Origin: Cellulophaga baltica
Lineage (GTDB): Bacteria > Bacteroidota > Bacteroidia > Flavobacteriales > Flavobacteriaceae
Direction: 5' to 3'
DNA: 64,000 bases
Assembly: GCF_018861125.1 (NCBI RefSeq)
Contig: NZ_JAHKQN010000004.1
Coordinates: forward strand, 1 to 64,000
In this document: one piece after another, positions 24,560 to 32,635 of the stretch
Layout: the number at the start of each line of letters is the position of its first letter
Position numbering within the stretch: position 1 is the first letter of the stretch
Notes under the pieces: model-generated
Told to the model about the DNA's origin: nothing
What the model saw: only the letters and a program-made list of their open reading frames with translations
Databases searched by the model: none
Made by a program: the position numbers and the translations under genes

Positions 24560-24590
24560 TTTGATAAAGAACTCAAAAATACTACATTTG
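24560..24590 (+). promoter_or_regulatory. thr operon promoter
   Basis: A perfect Bacteroidota vegetative promoter: TTTG at 24560-24563, 19-nt spacer, TACATTTG at 24583-24590. Transcription should start near 24597, 25 bp before the leader peptide ATG. Confidence 0.75.
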
Positions 24591-24621
24591 AGCATATCTT
24601 AAAAAGATATAGAGACCCAAA

Positions 24622-24705
24622 ATGGATAGTATATTTAATTTTTCTACAATTAACTTCGCTTGTGATACAACTATCACTATCAGCATCACAACCCCTTTGG
24701 GGTAA
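24622..24705 (+). CDS. thrL: thr operon leader peptide
   Basis: A 27-codon frame just after a perfect promoter and 75 bp before thrA. It reads MDSIFNFSTINFACDTTITI then SITTPLG and stop: five Thr and six Ile, with a Thr/Ile run (DTTITISITT) near the end. This is the hallmark of ribosome-mediated attenuation in threonine operons such as E. coli thrL. The last codons sit in an inverted repeat ACCCC-TTT-GGGGT (24691-24703), and GGGG could alternatively pair with the CCCG before TTTTT at 24723-24731. Too short for routine gene finding, but the amino acid bias is decisive. Confidence 0.85.
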   Translation: MDSIFNFSTINFACDTTITISITTPLG

Positions 24706-24731
24706 ATTGCTATATATACTCGTCCCGTTTT
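24691..24731 (+). promoter_or_regulatory. candidate thr attenuator
   Basis: ACCCC (24691-24695) can pair with GGGGT (24699-24703), or GGGG can pair with CCC at 24724-24726 just ahead of a T5 run. Mutually exclusive pairings overlapping the leader stop codon fit an antiterminator/terminator switch. The stems are short, so the exact structure is uncertain. Confidence 0.5.
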
Positions 24732-24780
24732 TGCATATACATGCATCCCTATTTATTTTTCAAAATAACAATCTCATAAA

Positions 24781-27225
24781 ATGAAAATTTTAAAATTTGG
24801 TGGTACTTCGGTAGCCAACGCAAAAAATATATCTTTAGTAAAAAACATAGTTGCTAATTCAAAAGCAGACAAAACAATAGTTGTTGTTTCTGCCTTAGGT
24901 GGTGTAACTGATTTACTTTTAAACACGGCACAATTAGCTTCTTCTCAAAACGAAGAATACAAATCAATTCTTAAGCAAATTGAAGACAGACATATTGCTA
25001 CTATAAAAGAATTAATTCCTATTCTAGAACAAAGCACAGTATTAAGTAAAGTAAAAAGTGAATTGAACACACTTGAAACTTTAGTAGAAGGTGCTTTTTT
25101 AATTGGAGAAATTACACCTAAACTTTCAGATAAAATTGTAAGTTTCGGCGAGTTGTTATCTTCTTTTATTATTAGCGAATATTTTAAAGCTGAAAAATTA
25201 AGCTGTACTTATAAAGACAGTAGAGAAATTATAAAAACTAATAATAACCACGGCAAAGCTATTGTTGATTTTAACATTACAAACAACAACTGCAAAACGT
25301 ACTTTTCTAAAGTATCAGAAAGTATAATAATCATGGGTGGTTTTATTGCATCATCAACTACTGGAAACTCTACAACATTAGGTCGTGGAGGTTCTGACTA
25401 TACTGCTGCCATTGTTGCAAGTGCTGTTGATGCAGAAATTTTAGAGATTTGGACCGATGTTAGTGGTATGTATACTGCAAATCCTAAATTGGTAAAACAA
25501 GCAGTTCCAATTCCTCATATATCATATGAAGAAGCTATGGAGCTTTCACATTTTGGGGCAAAAGTTTTATACCCACCAACAATACAACCCGTACTTTCAA
25601 AAGGAATTTCAATAGTAATAAAAAATACTTTTGATTCTGAAAGTTCAGGTACTTTAATTACAAAAAACAAAAACGAAGAAGGCAAAACCATTCGTGGTAT
25701 TAGCCATGTTGAAAATATAGCATTAGTATCTTTAGAAGGTTCAGGAATGGTTGGCATCCCTGGAATATCAAAACGCTTTTTTGAAGTTCTTTCTCAAGCA
25801 GGTATCAGCGTTGTACTTATTACACAAGCATCTTCTGAGCATTCAATTTGTGTAGGTATTTCAGAATATGATACTGATAAAGCGGTTGCTATAGTAAATG
25901 AAGCTTTTGAATATGAAATTTCATTAGGTAAAATCAAACCTACAATAGCTGAGAAAAACTTAGCCATTATTGCGCTTGTTGGTGATAATATGAAAAAACA
26001 CCAAGGACTAAGCGGTAAAATGTTCAGTGCTCTAGGAAAAAACAATGTAAATATTAGAGCTATTGCACAAGGTGCTTCTGAGCGTAATATTTCTGCTGTA
26101 ATTGTAAAAGAAGATGTAAAAAAAGCACTAAACACTTTACATGAGCAGTTTTTTGAAGAAAACGTAAAGCAACTAAACCTGTTTGTAATGGGTGTTGGTA
26201 ATGTTGGTAACAAATTCTTAGATCAAATTCAGCAACAGAAAAAATTCTTAAAAGAGAATTTAAAATTGAACTTAAGAGTTATTGGAATTTCAAACTCTAG
26301 AAAAATGTTTTTTGATGAAGATGGCATCAATTTAAAAGAGTGGAAATCTCTATTAGATAATGGTGAGAAAGCTGATAAAAAATTATTTTTTGAAAAAATT
26401 CAGAAATTAAATTACAGAAATAGCATTTTTGTTGATAATACAGCTAGTGCAGAAGTTTCTGAAACATATGCTTCATATCTAAAAAACAGCATTTCTGTTG
26501 TAACGTGTAATAAAATTGCTTGTTCTTCTGAGTTTAAAAACTATCAAAAACTTAAAGAATTAGCACGCCAGTACAATGCACCTTTCTTATTTGAAACAAA
26601 TGTTGGTGCCGGTTTACCTATTATAGACACCCTTAAACATTTAATTGCTTCTGGTGATAAAATATTAAAGATTCAAGCAGTACTATCAGGGAGTTTAAAC
26701 TTTGTATTCAACAACTTTGATGACAAAACCACATTCCATGATGTGGTTAAACAAGCACAAGAAGAAGGCTACACAGAGCCGGATCCAAAAATAGATTTAA
26801 GTGGTATTGACGTAATGCGTAAAATATTAATTTTAGCACGTGAAAGTGGTAATAAAATTGATATTGATGAAATAGGGAATACTCCTTTTTTACCTCAAGA
26901 AAGTTTAGATACAACAAATAATGAAGACTTTTTTGCAACTTTAGTAAAACACGAAGCTGATTTTCAAAAAACATATAAAGAAGCTACTGAAAAGAATAGC
27001 AAACTTAAATATGTTGCGCAGTTTGAAAATGGTAAAGCAAGTGTAGGTTTACAAGAAATACCAAAAGGTCATGATTTTTATAATTTAGAAGGTAGTGATA
27101 ATATTGTACTTTTTTATACAGAAAGGTATCCTAACCAACCTATGATTATAAAAGGGGCTGGTGCAGGAGCTGATGTTACTGCTTCAGGTATTTTTGCTGA
27201 TATCATCAGAATAGGTAATTTTTAA
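24781..27225 (+). CDS. thrA: bifunctional aspartokinase / homoserine dehydrogenase
   Basis: 814 residues. It has an aspartokinase domain with KFGGTSVANAKNI at 4-16 and TTLGRGGSDYTAAI, two ACT domains (about 310-460) for threonine sensing, then homoserine dehydrogenase from about 465 with GVGNVGNKFLDQI and SGSLNFVFNNF. It catalyses the first and third steps from aspartate toward threonine. Start ATG 24781 gives MKILKFGGTS, the normal beginning. First gene of thrABC, 75 bp after the leader peptide. Confidence 0.96.
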   Translation: MKILKFGGTSVANAKNISLVKNIVANSKADKTIVVVSALGGVTDLLLNTAQLASSQNEEYKSILKQIEDRHIATIKELIPILEQSTVLSKVKSELNTLETLVEGAFLIGEITPKLSDKIVSFGELLSSFIISEYFKAEKLSCTYKDSREIIKTNNNHGKAIVDFNITNNNCKTYFSKVSESIIIMGGFIASSTTGNSTTLGRGGSDYTAAIVASAVDAEILEIWTDVSGMYTANPKLVKQAVPIPHISYEEAMELSHFGAKVLYPPTIQPVLSKGISIVIKNTFDSESSGTLITKNKNEEGKTIRGISHVENIALVSLEGSGMVGIPGISKRFFEVLSQAGISVVLITQASSEHSICVGISEYDTDKAVAIVNEAFEYEISLGKIKPTIAEKNLAIIALVGDNMKKHQGLSGKMFSALGKNNVNIRAIAQGASERNISAVIVKEDVKKALNTLHEQFFEENVKQLNLFVMGVGNVGNKFLDQIQQQKKFLKENLKLNLRVIGISNSRKMFFDEDGINLKEWKSLLDNGEKADKKLFFEKIQKLNYRNSIFVDNTASAEVSETYASYLKNSISVVTCNKIACSSEFKNYQKLKELARQYNAPFLFETNVGAGLPIIDTLKHLIASGDKILKIQAVLSGSLNFVFNNFDDKTTFHDVVKQAQEEGYTEPDPKIDLSGIDVMRKILILARESGNKIDIDEIGNTPFLPQESLDTTNNEDFFATLVKHEADFQKTYKEATEKNSKLKYVAQFENGKASVGLQEIPKGHDFYNLEGSDNIVLFYTERYPNQPMIIKGAGAGADVTASGIFADIIRIGNF

Positions 27226-27237
27226 TTCAACAAAAAA

Positions 27238-28164
27238 ATGAGTGCATACGAGATAAGAGTTTTTTGTCCTGCAACTATTGCAAATGTATCTTGCGGTTTT
27301 GATGTATTAGGTCTTGCATTAGATGCTGTTGGAGATGAAATGGTGGTTAGAAAAACTGTAGAAAAAGGTATAAAAATAACAAAACTTGAAGGCCAAAATT
27401 TACCATTAGAAACTCTACAAAATGTTGCAGGTGTTGCCGGTTTAGCATTTTTAGCTGCTTGCGATTACGAGGGTGGTTTTGAAATTGAAATTTATAAAAA
27501 AATAAAAGCTGGTAGCGGTATTGGCTCAAGCGCAGCAAGTTCAACAGGTGCCGTTTGGGCTATGAATGAGCTAATTGGAAAACCATTTTCACCTTTAGAA
27601 TTAGTTAAATTTGCAATGGAAGGTGAACGCTTGGCAAGCGGGGTTCCGCATGCTGACAATGTCGCTCCTGCCCTATTTGGTGGTTTTACTTTAGTTAGAA
27701 GTTACATTCCATTAGATGTAGTGAAAATTAATACGCCAAGCGAATTATACGCTACTGTTATTCACCCACAAATTGAAGTAAAAACATCAGACTCAAGAAG
27801 AATTTTAAAAACTACAATTTCTCTTGAAGATGGTATTAAGCAATGGGGAAATGTCGGCGGATTAATTGCTGGGCTTTTTACTGAAGATTACGATTTAATA
27901 TCAAGATCACTAGAAGATCATATTGTTGAACCTATCCGTTCTATACTTATACCAGGTTTTGACTCCGTAAAACAAAAAGCATTAGACAATGGGGCTTTAG
28001 GTTCTGGGATTTCAGGTTCTGGGCCATCAATTTTTGCTTTAAGTAAAGGTGAAGAAACCGCAAAAAATGTTGCTAAAGCAATGACCGAAGTATACGACAA
28101 AATTGGAATCGATTACGATATTCATGTTTCAAAAATAAACTCAGAAGGAATAAAAATAATATAG
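27238..28164 (+). CDS. thrB: homoserine kinase
   Basis: 308 residues of the GHMP kinase family. It has VFCPATIANVSCGFDVLG at the N-terminus, the ATP loop IKAGSGIGSSAASSTGA at about 90-106, and the C-terminal GSGISGSGPSIFAL. It phosphorylates homoserine. It follows thrA by 12 bp. Confidence 0.96.
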   Translation: MSAYEIRVFCPATIANVSCGFDVLGLALDAVGDEMVVRKTVEKGIKITKLEGQNLPLETLQNVAGVAGLAFLAACDYEGGFEIEIYKKIKAGSGIGSSAASSTGAVWAMNELIGKPFSPLELVKFAMEGERLASGVPHADNVAPALFGGFTLVRSYIPLDVVKINTPSELYATVIHPQIEVKTSDSRRILKTTISLEDGIKQWGNVGGLIAGLFTEDYDLISRSLEDHIVEPIRSILIPGFDSVKQKALDNGALGSGISGSGPSIFALSKGEETAKNVAKAMTEVYDKIGIDYDIHVSKINSEGIKII

Positions 28165-28177
28165 TAAATAGCTACTT

Positions 28178-29479
28178 ATGAACTTTTACAGTCTAAATAA
28201 AAAAGCACCGAATGTAACTTTTAAAGATGCAGTCATAAAAGGTATAGCTCCTGATCGTGGCCTTTACTTTCCTGAAAGTATTACGCCTTTACCAAAAGAG
28301 TTTTTTGATAGTATAGAAAACTTAACAAATATTGAAATTGCTTTAAAAGCTATTCGTCAATTTGTTTCTGATGATATTAATGATGAAAAATTAAAAGATA
28401 TACTTGAAGGCGTTTTAAGTTTTGATTTCCCCGTTATAGAAATTAACGAGAATGTTGGAACATTAGAGCTTTTTCATGGACCAACACTTGCTTTTAAAGA
28501 TGTTGGTGCTGGATTTATGGCAAGATGCCTTGGTCATTTTTCTGAAGAAAACAAAAATGAAGTGACTGTTTTAGTTGCCACATCTGGTGATACTGGTGGT
28601 GCCGTAGCTAATGGCTTTTTAGATGTTGAAGGAGTGAATGTTGTTATTCTTTACCCAAGTGGTAAAGTAAGTGATATTCAAGAAAAGCAATTAACTACAC
28701 TTGGTAAAAACATTACCGCATTAGAAGTTAATGGTACTTTTGATGATTGCCAAACAATGGTAAAAACAGCATTTTTAGATACTGACCTTACTGATGCTAT
28801 GCAGTTAACATCAGCAAACTCAATAAATGTAGCACGTTGGTTACCACAAATGTTTTACTTTATGTTTGCTTACAAGCAAGCTAAATCAAAAGGCAAAGAA
28901 ATTGTATTTTCAATACCTAGTGGTAATTTTGGAAATATTTGTGCAGGTATGATTGCGCAACAATTAGGACTTCCTGTAAAACATTTTATAGCATCAACAA
29001 ATATAAATGATGTTGTACCTCGTTTTATGGATACCAAAAGTTACGACCCCAAACCATCTCATGCTACAATATCAAATGCAATGGATGTTGGAGACCCAAG
29101 TAATTTTATAAGAATCAGACATATTTTTAATGATGATTTTGATCAAATAGCAAAACATTTATCATCATACTCTTATACAGATGAGCAGACTAAAGAAGCT
29201 ATGAAAAAGCTTTATAATGATTTTAATTACACTGCTGATCCGCATGGAGCCGTTGGATATTTAGGATTGCAAAAATACCAAGAAACAAACCCTGACACTT
29301 ACGGTATTTTCTTAGAAACTGCACATCCAGTGAAGTTTTTAGATGTAGTTGAAGATACAATTCAAGAAAACATTGAAATTCCTGAAAAAATCATCAAACA
29401 GATGAAGAAAAAGAAAAAGTCTATTGAAATATCAACTTATGAAGAGCTTAAAAACTATTTATTAGTAGCTAAGAAATAA
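28178..29479 (+). CDS. thrC: threonine synthase
   Basis: 433 residues, PLP-dependent fold II. The PLP lysine lies in GPTLAFKDVGAGFM, and the phosphate loop is VATSGDTGGAVANG with SIPSGNFGNICAG downstream. It converts O-phosphohomoserine to threonine. It ends the thrABC operon, 13 bp after thrB, and is followed by a strong terminator. Confidence 0.96.
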   Translation: MNFYSLNKKAPNVTFKDAVIKGIAPDRGLYFPESITPLPKEFFDSIENLTNIEIALKAIRQFVSDDINDEKLKDILEGVLSFDFPVIEINENVGTLELFHGPTLAFKDVGAGFMARCLGHFSEENKNEVTVLVATSGDTGGAVANGFLDVEGVNVVILYPSGKVSDIQEKQLTTLGKNITALEVNGTFDDCQTMVKTAFLDTDLTDAMQLTSANSINVARWLPQMFYFMFAYKQAKSKGKEIVFSIPSGNFGNICAGMIAQQLGLPVKHFIASTNINDVVPRFMDTKSYDPKPSHATISNAMDVGDPSNFIRIRHIFNDDFDQIAKHLSSYSYTDEQTKEAMKKLYNDFNYTADPHGAVGYLGLQKYQETNPDTYGIFLETAHPVKFLDVVEDTIQENIEIPEKIIKQMKKKKKSIEISTYEELKNYLLVAKK

Positions 29480-29550: not shown

Positions 29551-30501
29551 TTAATCGTGTGTAGCATAAAAATCATAAACTACAACTTCTCCGTAATTAT
29601 TCTCATCATCAGTATCATCACCTTCTCTTTCAGCATTACTTTGCGTATAATTCCCAATTTTAAAATAAGAATCTTCATATGCTAAATCCATTAAAACAGT
29701 AGATCCGTCAGCTTCTACCAAATAATCTGAAGCAGTACCTGCATCAAACTTATCTTTTAATGTACCATCTTCACTATAGTAACAATAATGCTTATCATCA
29801 ATTACTTCAAATATAACCTCATGAATTGTACCTAATGTGTAGCTTGTTGAAATAGTAACATCTTCACGCAATTGACCACCATTAAAACTTAAAAACAAAT
29901 GAGAACCTTCTAAACGTAACACCATTGAATCATCAATACCCGCTTCTTTATCTCCATGAATTTGCGTAGCCACTAAATCATCTTTATTAATTGGCAGGTG
30001 CGTAATAGCCTGTTTTGCATAAACTATATGAGTACCCTCGGTTGTCCAGTAAATATCACTATCACCATCTTCTGTTCTCTCTCTGAGTTCAGATCTTATA
30101 TAGCTAGAATTAGGAGTTGTTCCATTATTACTTCGTATTGGAGCTTTAAAAACGATGCCATTTTTATCATCATTTACAAAAAAATATTCGTTGTTATCTT
30201 CATCACAAAGTGTTTTATCTTCTTCACCATCAGGATATGTAATTTTCCATTGATCACAATTCACCATTAAATCCGCAGGAATTAAAGCAGTACCTTCTTC
30301 CATTGATGTATCACCTTCTTCTACTTCATCATCAACTATTTCTTCATCAGTATCTGCATTTTCTTCTTCTGGCATTAAAATATCAATATCTTCATCCGCA
30401 TCTGTTTCATTATTAGAACAACTTACAGTACCTAATAACATAAAAGCAAATAGGCAACTTAAATAAAAAGCTGGCCTTAATAACATATTTGTTTTTTTCA
30501 T
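29551..30501 (-). CDS. PL7 alginate lyase lipoprotein, single domain
   Basis: 316 residues. A lipoprotein signal ends at LLGTVSCSNN, so the protein is likely anchored in the outer membrane. A very acidic linker (about 35-70) is followed by one PL7 lyase domain with the catalytic strands RSELRER, ATQIHGD and YFKIGNYTQS. It cleaves alginate by beta-elimination, but endo/exo mode and M/G preference cannot be read. The catalytic domain is close to that of the protein at 32949-34679. A TTTG plus 20-nt plus TAAATTTT promoter-like pair lies upstream, but not the palindrome shared by the two other PL7 genes. Confidence 0.88.
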   Translation of the reverse strand: MKKTNMLLRPAFYLSCLFAFMLLGTVSCSNNETDADEDIDILMPEEENADTDEEIVDDEVEEGDTSMEEGTALIPADLMVNCDQWKITYPDGEEDKTLCDEDNNEYFFVNDDKNGIVFKAPIRSNNGTTPNSSYIRSELRERTEDGDSDIYWTTEGTHIVYAKQAITHLPINKDDLVATQIHGDKEAGIDDSMVLRLEGSHLFLSFNGGQLREDVTISTSYTLGTIHEVIFEVIDDKHYCYYSEDGTLKDKFDAGTASDYLVEADGSTVLMDLAYEDSYFKIGNYTQSNAEREGDDTDDENNYGEVVVYDFYATHD

Positions 30502-30634
30502 AATTTATAGCAATAAAATTTATTTGACAATAACTAAAGACTCAAATTTAGTCTTAATATTTAACGATTAATTACATTAAAAATTGTTTAATTATAACTA
30601 GCAACACCTGTAGAACGTAGTATTTCATCGAAAA

Positions 30635-30664
30635 AAAAGCCCTCGAAAAAATTCAAGGGCTTTA
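30635..30664 (-). terminator. terminator after the 641-residue PL7 gene frame
   Basis: AAAAGCCCT pairs with AGGGCTTT, and on the minus strand the stem is followed by eight T, 28 bp after the stop of the upstream lyase gene. Confidence 0.85.
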
Positions 30665-30691
30665 AACAAACATTTAAATTAAAAAAAATGG

Positions 30692-32578
30692 TTAGTCATG
30701 AGAAGTTTCTAACCTGTAAAAAGTTACTTGCTCGTAATCTGATGAGCTTGTAACTGTCTTATTGGCAGAATACAAACCTGCTTTGAAATACATGTAATCA
30801 TCTTCTAAACCACTATCATTCATATCAAAAGTAGTAGAAGCAAGTGTACTTCCTGATTCATTATAGATATAAACATACATTGTATTACCTACAACTTCTA
30901 TTTTATAAGAGAATACTTCACCAAGTTCAATACCATCTGACGGACTACCAGCACCTGTGTAATCACCAGCACCTGAACCAGTTTCTTCTACATAATCATC
31001 ACCAAGTAAGTTTTCAAAAACTTCATCACCATCATTAGGATCATGAGCAAAATAGATTGCACCTTTACTATGACCTGGTTGTTTATGATAGTACAAACGA
31101 ATTGGCTCATTATCACTTGCATGAATTTGTCCAATAATCACCCTACCTAATTGCGAGGTACTTTCAGATGTTGTTGTAACCCTGTTTACTGTTAAAGTTG
31201 CTTCCATTACACCATCAACACCACCTGCTTTAGATTGGTTACTAGAGCTAGATGAACTAAATACCCAGTTATTACCATTAATACCTTGCGTACTAATATC
31301 ATCATTAGTACCACGTAACATTTCTCTTAACTCAACTCTAGAATATGTTGAATTTGTAGTTGTACCGGCTCCTTTAGGGTAATTTTTAAATACCATTCCA
31401 CCATCAGAACCTGTATAAAACTGATCTTCAAGCTCAAAACCATCATTAATTTGCTCAACTGTTTTCTCTTCACCTGATGACAATGTTATTTTCCACGTTG
31501 AAAGATCAAAGTTTTCAGAAGGCGCCCAACTAGAATTTAAATCTCCAATTGCAACTTCTTCCTCTTCCTCTTCTTCCTCATCTTCAATTTCTTCTTCTAA
31601 TTCAGATCCATCGATACTACCACTATACACTTGAACTTCTGCTAAAGAAAGGTTGTCTTCCCCTTTTAATTTAATACGCACTCTAGATCCAACAACACCA
31701 CCAGTACTTAAAATTAAAGACGGGCTAGGTTCTTCTGTAATTGTAGATTTATATACTTGATCTCCATTTTCGTTGTAAACAAATACATCAAAATTTGTTA
31801 ATCTATCTGTACAACAATCAGTTCTATTCCAAATTACAATATCTCCAATTTCATAATCATCACCTAAACGCACTTGCCACCAAGCTTCTGATTCTATATT
31901 TGTACGAGTTACACTATTATCACTACTATCATCACTCCACTCACCAGATGTATTACCATCAATAGCTAATGAAGCTGCTCCTACACCTGAAGTGTTTGTT
32001 GACGATTGTTCAGCTGTTCCACTTAAAGCAATGTTTTCAACAGTAGTTGATGCAACATCAATTGGAGTTATTGAAATCCAATTAATATTCCAACCACCAC
32101 CAGTGGCTAATAATTTTAAAATACTTGAACCTTCTTCTAACTCTACCGTTTTTGAAGTAGTTACCCAACTTTGCCAACCACCAGACGCTGCTTTATTTAC
32201 GTTCGATAATTTCGTATCATCTTGATAAAAATCAAATTTAGATGTTTCTGTTTTTGAAGCTACTCTAAAATCAAATTTGTAGCTTCCTGATGCAGGAACA
32301 TCAATTTCATACTCTAAATAATCGCCTTCATCAATCCAACCAACATTTATACCGCCATCTGTATCTGATGTTGTTTCAGTTTTAATACCACTCATGGAAT
32401 CAAAATTTTCTGCTTCTATCAAAATTTCCGAAGTTGAAGAAATAGAAGTTGATTCTGTAACTGAAAATTCTTGTAAATTTTCTTCATAAAAACTTTCATC
32501 CTCAGAACAATTGTAGGTAATTAGTGATGCTGACAATAGTAAAGCACCGTAACTAATTGATTTAATTTTTTTTTTCAT
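30692..32578 (-). CDS. CBM6-CBM32-PL7 alginate lyase lipoprotein
   Basis: Start ATG 32578 (MKKKIKSISYGALLL) is chosen over an in-frame ATG 39 bp upstream, because it gives a clean lipoprotein signal (SLITYNCSED). 628 residues: CBM6-like domain (about 35-175, IEAENFDSMSG, GWNINWISITP), F5/8-type CBM32 (about 180-320, SGEWSDDSSDN, EIGDIVIWNRTDCC), a poly-Glu linker, and a C-terminal PL7 with RVELREM, IIGQIHA and YFKAGLYSAN. The lyase differs in the Q-I-H region from its two neighbours and is probably another PL7 subfamily. Upstream are a TTTG-19-TAATATTG promoter and a palindromic operator candidate. Confidence 0.88.
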   Translation of the reverse strand: MKKKIKSISYGALLLSASLITYNCSEDESFYEENLQEFSVTESTSISSTSEILIEAENFDSMSGIKTETTSDTDGGINVGWIDEGDYLEYEIDVPASGSYKFDFRVASKTETSKFDFYQDDTKLSNVNKAASGGWQSWVTTSKTVELEEGSSILKLLATGGGWNINWISITPIDVASTTVENIALSGTAEQSSTNTSGVGAASLAIDGNTSGEWSDDSSDNSVTRTNIESEAWWQVRLGDDYEIGDIVIWNRTDCCTDRLTNFDVFVYNENGDQVYKSTITEEPSPSLILSTGGVVGSRVRIKLKGEDNLSLAEVQVYSGSIDGSELEEEIEDEEEEEEEEVAIGDLNSSWAPSENFDLSTWKITLSSGEEKTVEQINDGFELEDQFYTGSDGGMVFKNYPKGAGTTTNSTYSRVELREMLRGTNDDISTQGINGNNWVFSSSSSSNQSKAGGVDGVMEATLTVNRVTTTSESTSQLGRVIIGQIHASDNEPIRLYYHKQPGHSKGAIYFAHDPNDGDEVFENLLGDDYVEETGSGAGDYTGAGSPSDGIELGEVFSYKIEVVGNTMYVYIYNESGSTLASTTFDMNDSGLEDDYMYFKAGLYSANKTVTSSSDYEQVTFYRLETSHD

Positions 32579-32608
32579 TTTTTCTAATAAAATTTGAGTT
32601 AAATATTC

Positions 32609-32635
32609 TCTGGTCAACCAATCTGGTTTTCCAAA
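32609..32635. promoter_or_regulatory. palindromic operator candidate, PL7 gene 2
   Basis: TCTGGTCA-A-CCAA-T-CTGG-T-TTTCCAAA has the same plan as the near-perfect palindrome at 34714-34740 (outer TTGGTnA / TnnCCAA, inner CCAA / TTGG). It lies just after the predicted transcription start and about 44 bp before the start codon. Confidence 0.5.

Follow-up and report, generated by a model that had tools for sequence, protein, structure and literature searches.

A probable Thr/Ile-sensing leader without a recognisable intrinsic terminator upstream of thrA in Cellulophaga baltica

The segment directly upstream of thrA in Cellulophaga baltica is very probably a Thr/Ile-sensing leader of the thr operon, as judged by sequence comparison across its family. 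The leader consists of a short Thr/Ile-rich open reading frame (ORF), a hairpin that overlaps the leader stop codon (H1), a G-poor linker and a second hairpin (H2). The sensor half of this arrangement is well supported, and for the output step we infer that control probably acts on transcription or on the fate of the RNA, and does so without an intrinsic terminator. The DNA analysed, called the window below, is a stretch of 64,000 nucleotides (contig NZ_JAHKQN010000004.1, positions 1 to 64,000 of the forward strand), and coordinates refer to the plus strand of this stretch. A first-pass annotation had described the segment as a complete thr attenuation leader. The translated, Thr/Ile-coded leader in that description stands, by conservation; neither an intrinsic terminator nor a consistent switch between pairings was found to complete it.

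Layout and conserved coding frame

As read from the sequence, transcription would begin from a promoter at 24560..24590 that consists of TTTG (24560-24563), a 19-nt spacer and TACATTTG (24583-24590). This bears out the promoter given in the first-pass annotation and fits the TAnnTTTG type of flavobacterial box described in PMC9723704. The spacing of the two elements is identical in all 18 genomes of the genus. Between the promoter and the leader ORF lies a small 5' hairpin (ATATCTT/AAGATAT, 24594-24610), of which part of the genus seems to carry a version with a different sequence at the same place.

The leader ORF occupies 24622..24705, encodes the 27-codon peptide MDSIFNFSTINFACDTTITISITTPLG and ends with TAA. 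Its length agrees with that annotated, and the Thr and Ile counts had been interchanged: the peptide holds six Thr and five Ile. The codon list and the positional enrichment of Thr and Ile place the control codons at 24667..24693 (TTITISITT, codons 16-24), and the last of these, codon 24, is the ACC that opens the H1 stem. As annotated, a gap of 75 nt separates the end of the leader ORF from the ATG at 24781. The ORF that starts there (24781..27225, 814 aa) is recognised from its sequence as what we take to be thrA, encoding aspartate kinase / homoserine dehydrogenase. It is followed on the same strand by ORFs at 27238..28164 and 28178..29479, which are presumably thrB (homoserine kinase) and thrC (threonine synthase). 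Among named relatives, the closest that was found is an uncultured Cellulophaga, with the proviso that the window's own record may be omitted from that comparison. After thrC, two ORFs on the minus strand (29551-32617) look like secreted polysaccharide (alginate) lyases, an identification that we assume from their sequences.

A Thr/Ile run by itself is unremarkable in this DNA, since the six frames of the window contain 16 overlapping positions with at least nine Thr plus Ile residues per 13 codons, and the comparative test is therefore the one that decides. This test uses a family sample in which each genus is represented by a single genome. Among the 149 genomes examined, thrA passed the threshold in 115, and the analysis covers 110 of their upstream regions. 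Three genomes outside the 110-locus count (G082, G052 and G081) were inspected separately, and two more (G112 and G141, with a split contig) were met among the covariance-model matches described below. H1 occurs in frame with a Thr/Ile run in 89 of the 110 upstream regions, and the element as defined is absent from the other 21 genera; the cut-off of four Thr plus Ile dropped two of the 91 loci that have a candidate stem. Across the 89 loci the mean number of Thr plus Ile in 13 codons is 7.13 in the frame of the ACC, compared with 0.62 and 0.29 in the other two frames. The enrichment draws on all Thr and Ile codons, and the control codons are densest within the last seven codons, ACC included. 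A chance ORF, or a conserved DNA site with no translated leader, would have to be entertained on the ground that AT-rich DNA readily yields Thr/Ile-rich frames, as the 16 window positions illustrate; frame-specific enrichment in 89 genera through every Thr and Ile codon argues so strongly against it that we regard it as wrong with near certainty.

A second set of loci, picked by similarity and overlapping the same family, has the stem in 91 of 96 cases; the stem noted in L096 is a false one. A few of its loci, such as L088 and L093, have weak Thr/Ile runs. The set omits the two paralogues L002 and L003, L021, which we treat as identical in locus to L004, and L071, whose sequence is truncated. 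The first-pass annotation had staked its reading on conservation of the peptide and its Thr/Ile run among close flavobacterial relatives; with 89 of 110 genus-balanced loci positive, the leader passes this test. It had also recorded the leader as a flavobacterial case worth noting; the case is not an isolated one, since such leaders are found throughout the family and in further families of the phylum.

Hairpins and linker

H1 (ACCCC-TTT-GGGGT, 24691..24703) is identified by folding and by alignment. It overlaps the leader stop as first annotated, with its last base being the first T of the TAA. The core C and G columns of H1 are invariant or nearly so in alignment A1, which holds 74 sequences hand-picked from 101 available. 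Covariation in the stem, which had been proposed as a check, is not found for H1 among these 74 sequences because the core is nearly invariant. In the 89 family loci the stop codon ends 9 to 33 nt past the start of the ACC, and in 77 of them it ends at 9, 15 or 18 nt, so that a terminating ribosome would cover H1. Depending on lineage, the ACC-encoded Thr is usually followed by Pro, Leu or Arg (by Gln in L081), and thus the RNA stem, rather than the end of the peptide, seems to be what is held. The entire leader folds better than its shuffles (z -2.8, with 2 of 200 as good). A search with the pattern CCCN4GGG-N10-34-CGTC gives one match besides the thr site, inside a long ORF.

H1 is followed by a U/A-rich, G-poor linker (24704..24731) that carries CTATATATACTCGTCC and is defined by the base frequencies of the 89 loci and by alignment A1. 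It is about 28 nt long, with a G frequency of at most 0.10 at positions 8 to 20 after the stem in the 89 loci. A TATAT/CATATC motif within it commonly begins 9 to 13 nt past the stem, and a second copy of CATATC stands at the ORF start as a loose match in 26 of 101 loci.

H2 (TGCAT-ATAC-ATGCA, 24732..24745) is weak in the window genome, at -3.7 kcal/mol and z -2.0 in its own folding window, and its position is conserved in the family. Taken as a whole, the segment 3' of H1 shows unremarkable folding (mean z -0.55). Only the interval from +22 to +72 stands out from its shuffles, with a mean z of -1.53 and values below -1 in 58 of 89 loci, compared with means of +0.37 and +0.29 in the fold windows before and after it. 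In 46 of these 58 loci, pairing begins 27 to 31 nt past the stem. H2 is thus kept at a fixed distance from H1 with a sequence that is free to vary; certain lineages, for example Gelidibacter and Flagellimonas, have no H2 or only a very weak one.

Pairing within H2 was compared with shuffles in 22 sequences of one clade, which were hand-picked and cut around their own predicted hairpins, a choice that favours pairing; one poorly pairing sequence (L206) is retained among them. In these rows 95.5 % of cells are paired against 86.5 % in shuffles (0/500 as high), and 14 cells are double-changed against 3.4 (0/500). Two other measures in the same rows are not outstanding: double changes affect 4 pairs against 2.5 in shuffles (46/500), and the count of further pair types is equalled by 244/500 shuffles.

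Candidate output mechanisms

The terminator scan finds no intrinsic terminator between the leader and thrA in the window. With the strict rule applied from stem to thrA, terminator-like sequence is present in one of the 89 family loci (L212), in one of 18 thr loci of the genus (L010, six pairs) and in none of 12 further element loci. The same rule applied to control flanks of the genus returns terminator-like sequence in 18 of 18 his, 14 of 17 ilvD and 8 of 18 trp flanks, and several trp terminator tails, reading TTACTTATTTT, fail the rule. Thr leaders of the terminator kind match the scan in seven of seven cases (five loci of family f3, plus L271 and L275 from two genera of the window's family), where the match in L271 is not the downstream hairpin-plus-T that is visible by eye. 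As the controls give matches, terminators are usually recognisable when present, and the thr leader is one that does not have them. An intrinsic terminator is consequently not borne out as the output, with no match in the window, 1/89 in the family and 1/18 in the genus.

The window's own genome contains, outside the window, his (L112, contig C35), trp (L148, C26) and ilv (L133, C4) leaders. Their peptides carry HHHH, WWW and MRNYILNKVIIIVSSKR, respectively, and hairpin-plus-T terminators follow them. A considerable distance separates the ilv leader from ilvD, and a further promoter-like box occurs in that interval.

The untranslated segment at 24706..24780 contains 16 C and 5 G and is a candidate Rho-loading region. 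In the 89 element loci the 75 nt preceding thrA have a C frequency of 0.174 and a G frequency of 0.077, and C exceeds G in 88 of them, compared with 10 of the 21 loci without the element. A script had put the thrA start at a stop codon in five of these 21 (L256, L259, L260, L262 and L267); after cleaning, which removed such misplaced starts and flanks that are open frames, C exceeds G in 8 of 15 loci without the element (Fisher 2e-6). The corresponding counts are 13 of 31 for control flanks of the window and 26 of 59 for phylum loci without a leader. The bias is also present, in mild form, in his (16/18) and trp (18/18) flanks, and it fails in two of the 12 further element loci (L289 and L293). 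The window's genome has a rho gene, detected as a TIGR00767 match above cut-off.

The absence of an intrinsic terminator together with the strong excess of C over G makes Rho-dependent termination the first choice for the output. The distance from the stem to the thrA ATG ranges from 73 to 271 nt across loci, which makes control of transcription or RNA fate likelier than translational coupling. The reading we tentatively prefer from these sequence features is that thrABC responds to ribosomes stalled at the Thr/Ile codons of a leader that works without a terminator, with Rho as the most likely intermediary. In this mechanism the short ORF would be translated while the leader is being synthesised. 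When charged Thr- or Ile-tRNA is scarce, the ribosome would stall on the run ahead of H1. When both tRNAs are ample, it would reach the stop in or just past H1 and depart, leaving the G-poor, C-over-G leader RNA exposed to Rho, which would halt transcription before thrA or early within it. A stalled ribosome would instead hinder the loading or movement of Rho, so that thrABC could be transcribed. Stalls modelled in the window with one assumed footprint mask H1 at codons 23, 24 and 28 and leave H1 forming at codons 9, 16, 17 and 19; a ribosome held at the last control codons would thus lie over the 5' arm of H1. Translation with stalling, the action of Rho and the roles of H1 and H2 are all steps that we infer, and Rho in particular is named as the agent with considerable reserve. 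The C excess could merely reflect avoidance of G that keeps the RNA open, and unless the leader ORF is counted too, the free segment past H1 offers little length for a Rho site. Moreover, the Rho model does not account for the fixed H1-H2 spacing or the retention of H2.

Pairings alternative to H1 and H2 were compared with cross-locus and shuffled controls. An antiterminator formed by the H1 G arm and the linker is not borne out, with pairing weaker than in both kinds of control; when the 5' arm is taken away, the G arm does pair elsewhere in the minimum free energy fold of 85 of 89 loci. Pairing of H1 with H2, and of the whole leader ORF with H2, is at chance level and is likewise not borne out. 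The leader ORF pairs with the linker at -7.43, compared with -6.78 across loci (0/60 as strong) and -7.08 in shuffles (2/60). For the last 40 nt of the ORF in 88 loci, pairing with the linker is equalled by 0 of 100 cross-locus controls and by 14 of 40 shuffles, and pairing with H2 by 5 of 100 and 3 of 40; the other seven fine-piece pairings in these loci are unremarkable. In part of 38 hand-picked relatives, the ORF start (AAACGGAC) can form a helix with the linker (GTCCGTTT) that scores 14.5, against 13.9 across loci (15/300 as high) and 13.0 with shuffled linkers (0/100). This helix is limited to part of one clade and is a lead only, and a terminator/antiterminator switch in the thr leader is unproven but may exist. 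The loci with this pairing (L022, L026, L028, L042, L171, L177 and L178) belong to part of the Maribacter/Flagellimonas group, and in one case, L042, it is kept through a compensatory change.

These results bear unequally on the rival explanations. Classical attenuation of the E. coli type, with H2 or another hairpin as an intrinsic terminator governed by H1 or a long-range helix, would share the same sensor part, and its anatomy is seen in the his, trp and ilv leaders of the genus and in the terminator-bearing thr leaders of the five f3 loci, L271 and L275. The pairing of the ORF with the linker beats its controls, and that of the last codons with H2 does so somewhat; both count in its favour. 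Classical attenuation is nevertheless quite improbable here, given how rarely the three sets of thr loci contain terminator-like sequence, the lack of a T-run directly 3' of H2, by eye, among the foldings listed, and pairings that fall below chance for the G arm with the linker and at chance for the ORF or H1 with H2.

The fixed geometry of H1, linker and H2 that Rho alone leaves unexplained keeps a post-transcriptional model alive. In this model an RNase would cut, or a protein would bind, at the open linker, H2 would shield the new 5' end of the thrA mRNA, and the stalled ribosome or H1 would gate access. It fits a single-stranded motif at a fixed place in the linker and an H2 with fixed distance, free sequence and compensatory changes in one clade; the lineages in which H2 is missing or very weak (Gelidibacter and Flagellimonas) speak against it, and on balance we hold it to be unlikely, with a real chance of being correct. 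Translational control, where leader translation or H1/H2 would govern initiation at thrA, is compatible with the leader ORF and thrA appearing on one transcript and with the participation of a ribosome. It is very unlikely, however, in view of a stem-to-ATG distance that varies so widely while the H1-H2 spacing stays fixed.

Occurrence in the phylum and relation to known leaders

In E. coli, the thr leader (thrL, RF00506 Thr_leader) encodes a Thr/Ile peptide just upstream of thrA, with a hairpin around its stop. The leader described here resembles it in having a Thr/Ile-coded short peptide before thrA and a hairpin at the leader stop, and differs from it in having the conserved linker and H2 instead of an intrinsic terminator. 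Rfam gives no match to the window at the gathering threshold, RF00506 included, and at E <=5 the window matches only three other families, at chance level. Six leader peptides gave no match in Pfam/NCBIfam, a search run with no E. coli positive control and on peptides of a length that matches poorly. The his, trp and ilv leaders of the genus are similar to the thr leader in that their peptides are rich in the regulated amino acid (for example HHHH, WWW, IIIIVLVIII and MKTNNIIIIVLVIIISLWG) and that a hairpin may lie near the stop; these leaders end in hairpin-plus-T terminators, whereas the thr leader does not. In the thr leaders of f3, L271 and L275, a Thr/Ile peptide likewise precedes thrA, and a hairpin-plus-T terminator replaces the linker and H2.

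Rho termination linked to an upstream ORF is known from tnaC, which senses free tryptophan. In E. coli topAI/toiL, stalling on the upstream ORF alters downstream Rho termination (PMC12121999); toiL senses antibiotics, and its effect on Rho is indirect, through translation of topAI (PMC12121999). In contrast to both systems, the cue here would be charged tRNA, and the action of Rho is at this stage a proposal. For Flavobacterium psychrophilum, a member of the same family, a 2021 transcriptome paper reports strong clues for leader-peptide attenuation before amino-acid operons (PMC9723704). Its relevant section does not contain the thr-leader architecture, and the word 'threonine' is absent from its main text. 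A search of the open-licence literature found no paper describing a thr leader of this architecture. Flavobacterial leader-peptide attenuation is already suggested in print.

Within the window's genome, a covariance model built on the stem, the linker and the H2 region matches the thr leader only (E 9.4e-5; the next match has E 1.4). In the 149 family genomes it yields 107 matches at E <=0.05, of which 86 lie just before thrA. Below E 0.01, 83 of 88 matches lie just before thrA; the 74 rows of the model derive mostly from the same genomes, so that the thrA matches arise by construction and the informative part is the five matches elsewhere. These five comprise a thrA on a split contig, a thrB-like ORF, two sites without the ACCC stem and one site that resembles a his-leader terminator. 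At the thrB-like site (L386; G096:C85), a Thr/Ile leader and stem stand ahead of a thrB-like ORF rather than thrA.

The phylum sample contains 87 upstream regions, 73 from outside the window's family and 14 from inside it. The terminator-less design of stem and run is found in families f2, f4 and f21, the last of which belongs to another class, in 11 loci altogether (L289, L291-L297 and L300-L302). In family f8, Thr-rich leaders (L307, L308 and L313) end at the same place in an inverted stem, with GGG first and CCC second, which suggests that the hairpin, and not its letters, is the requirement there. Many phylum loci, those of f15 included, have no upstream ORF with more than four Thr plus Ile per 13 codons. 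With more caution than the Rho-based reading calls for, we raise the possibility of a cis-regulatory RNA family, present in several lineages of the phylum, that would combine a Thr/Ile leader, no intrinsic terminator and a fixed hairpin-linker-hairpin, that would be controlled through Rho or a factor acting on the linker, and that would have been interchanged in evolution with the terminator design.

Attenuation by amino-acid leaders is taught with an intrinsic terminator as the output. Here the sensor is kept in most sampled genera and in other families, with another conserved module where the terminator is expected. The neighbouring his, trp and ilv leaders with ordinary terminators offer a natural comparison for how ribosome stalling is read out, and searches for attenuators that rely on terminators are suggested to miss leaders of the terminator-less kind.

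Two further arrangements were observed upstream of thrA in the phylum. In L255, L260, L262 and L267, where no thr leader was found, thrA lies behind a long open frame whose end resembles what we take to be threonine dehydratase (IlvA). In L307, L308, L313 and L320, Thr-rich leaders of another family, the inverted stem has GGGG before CCC and the stop lies within the loop.
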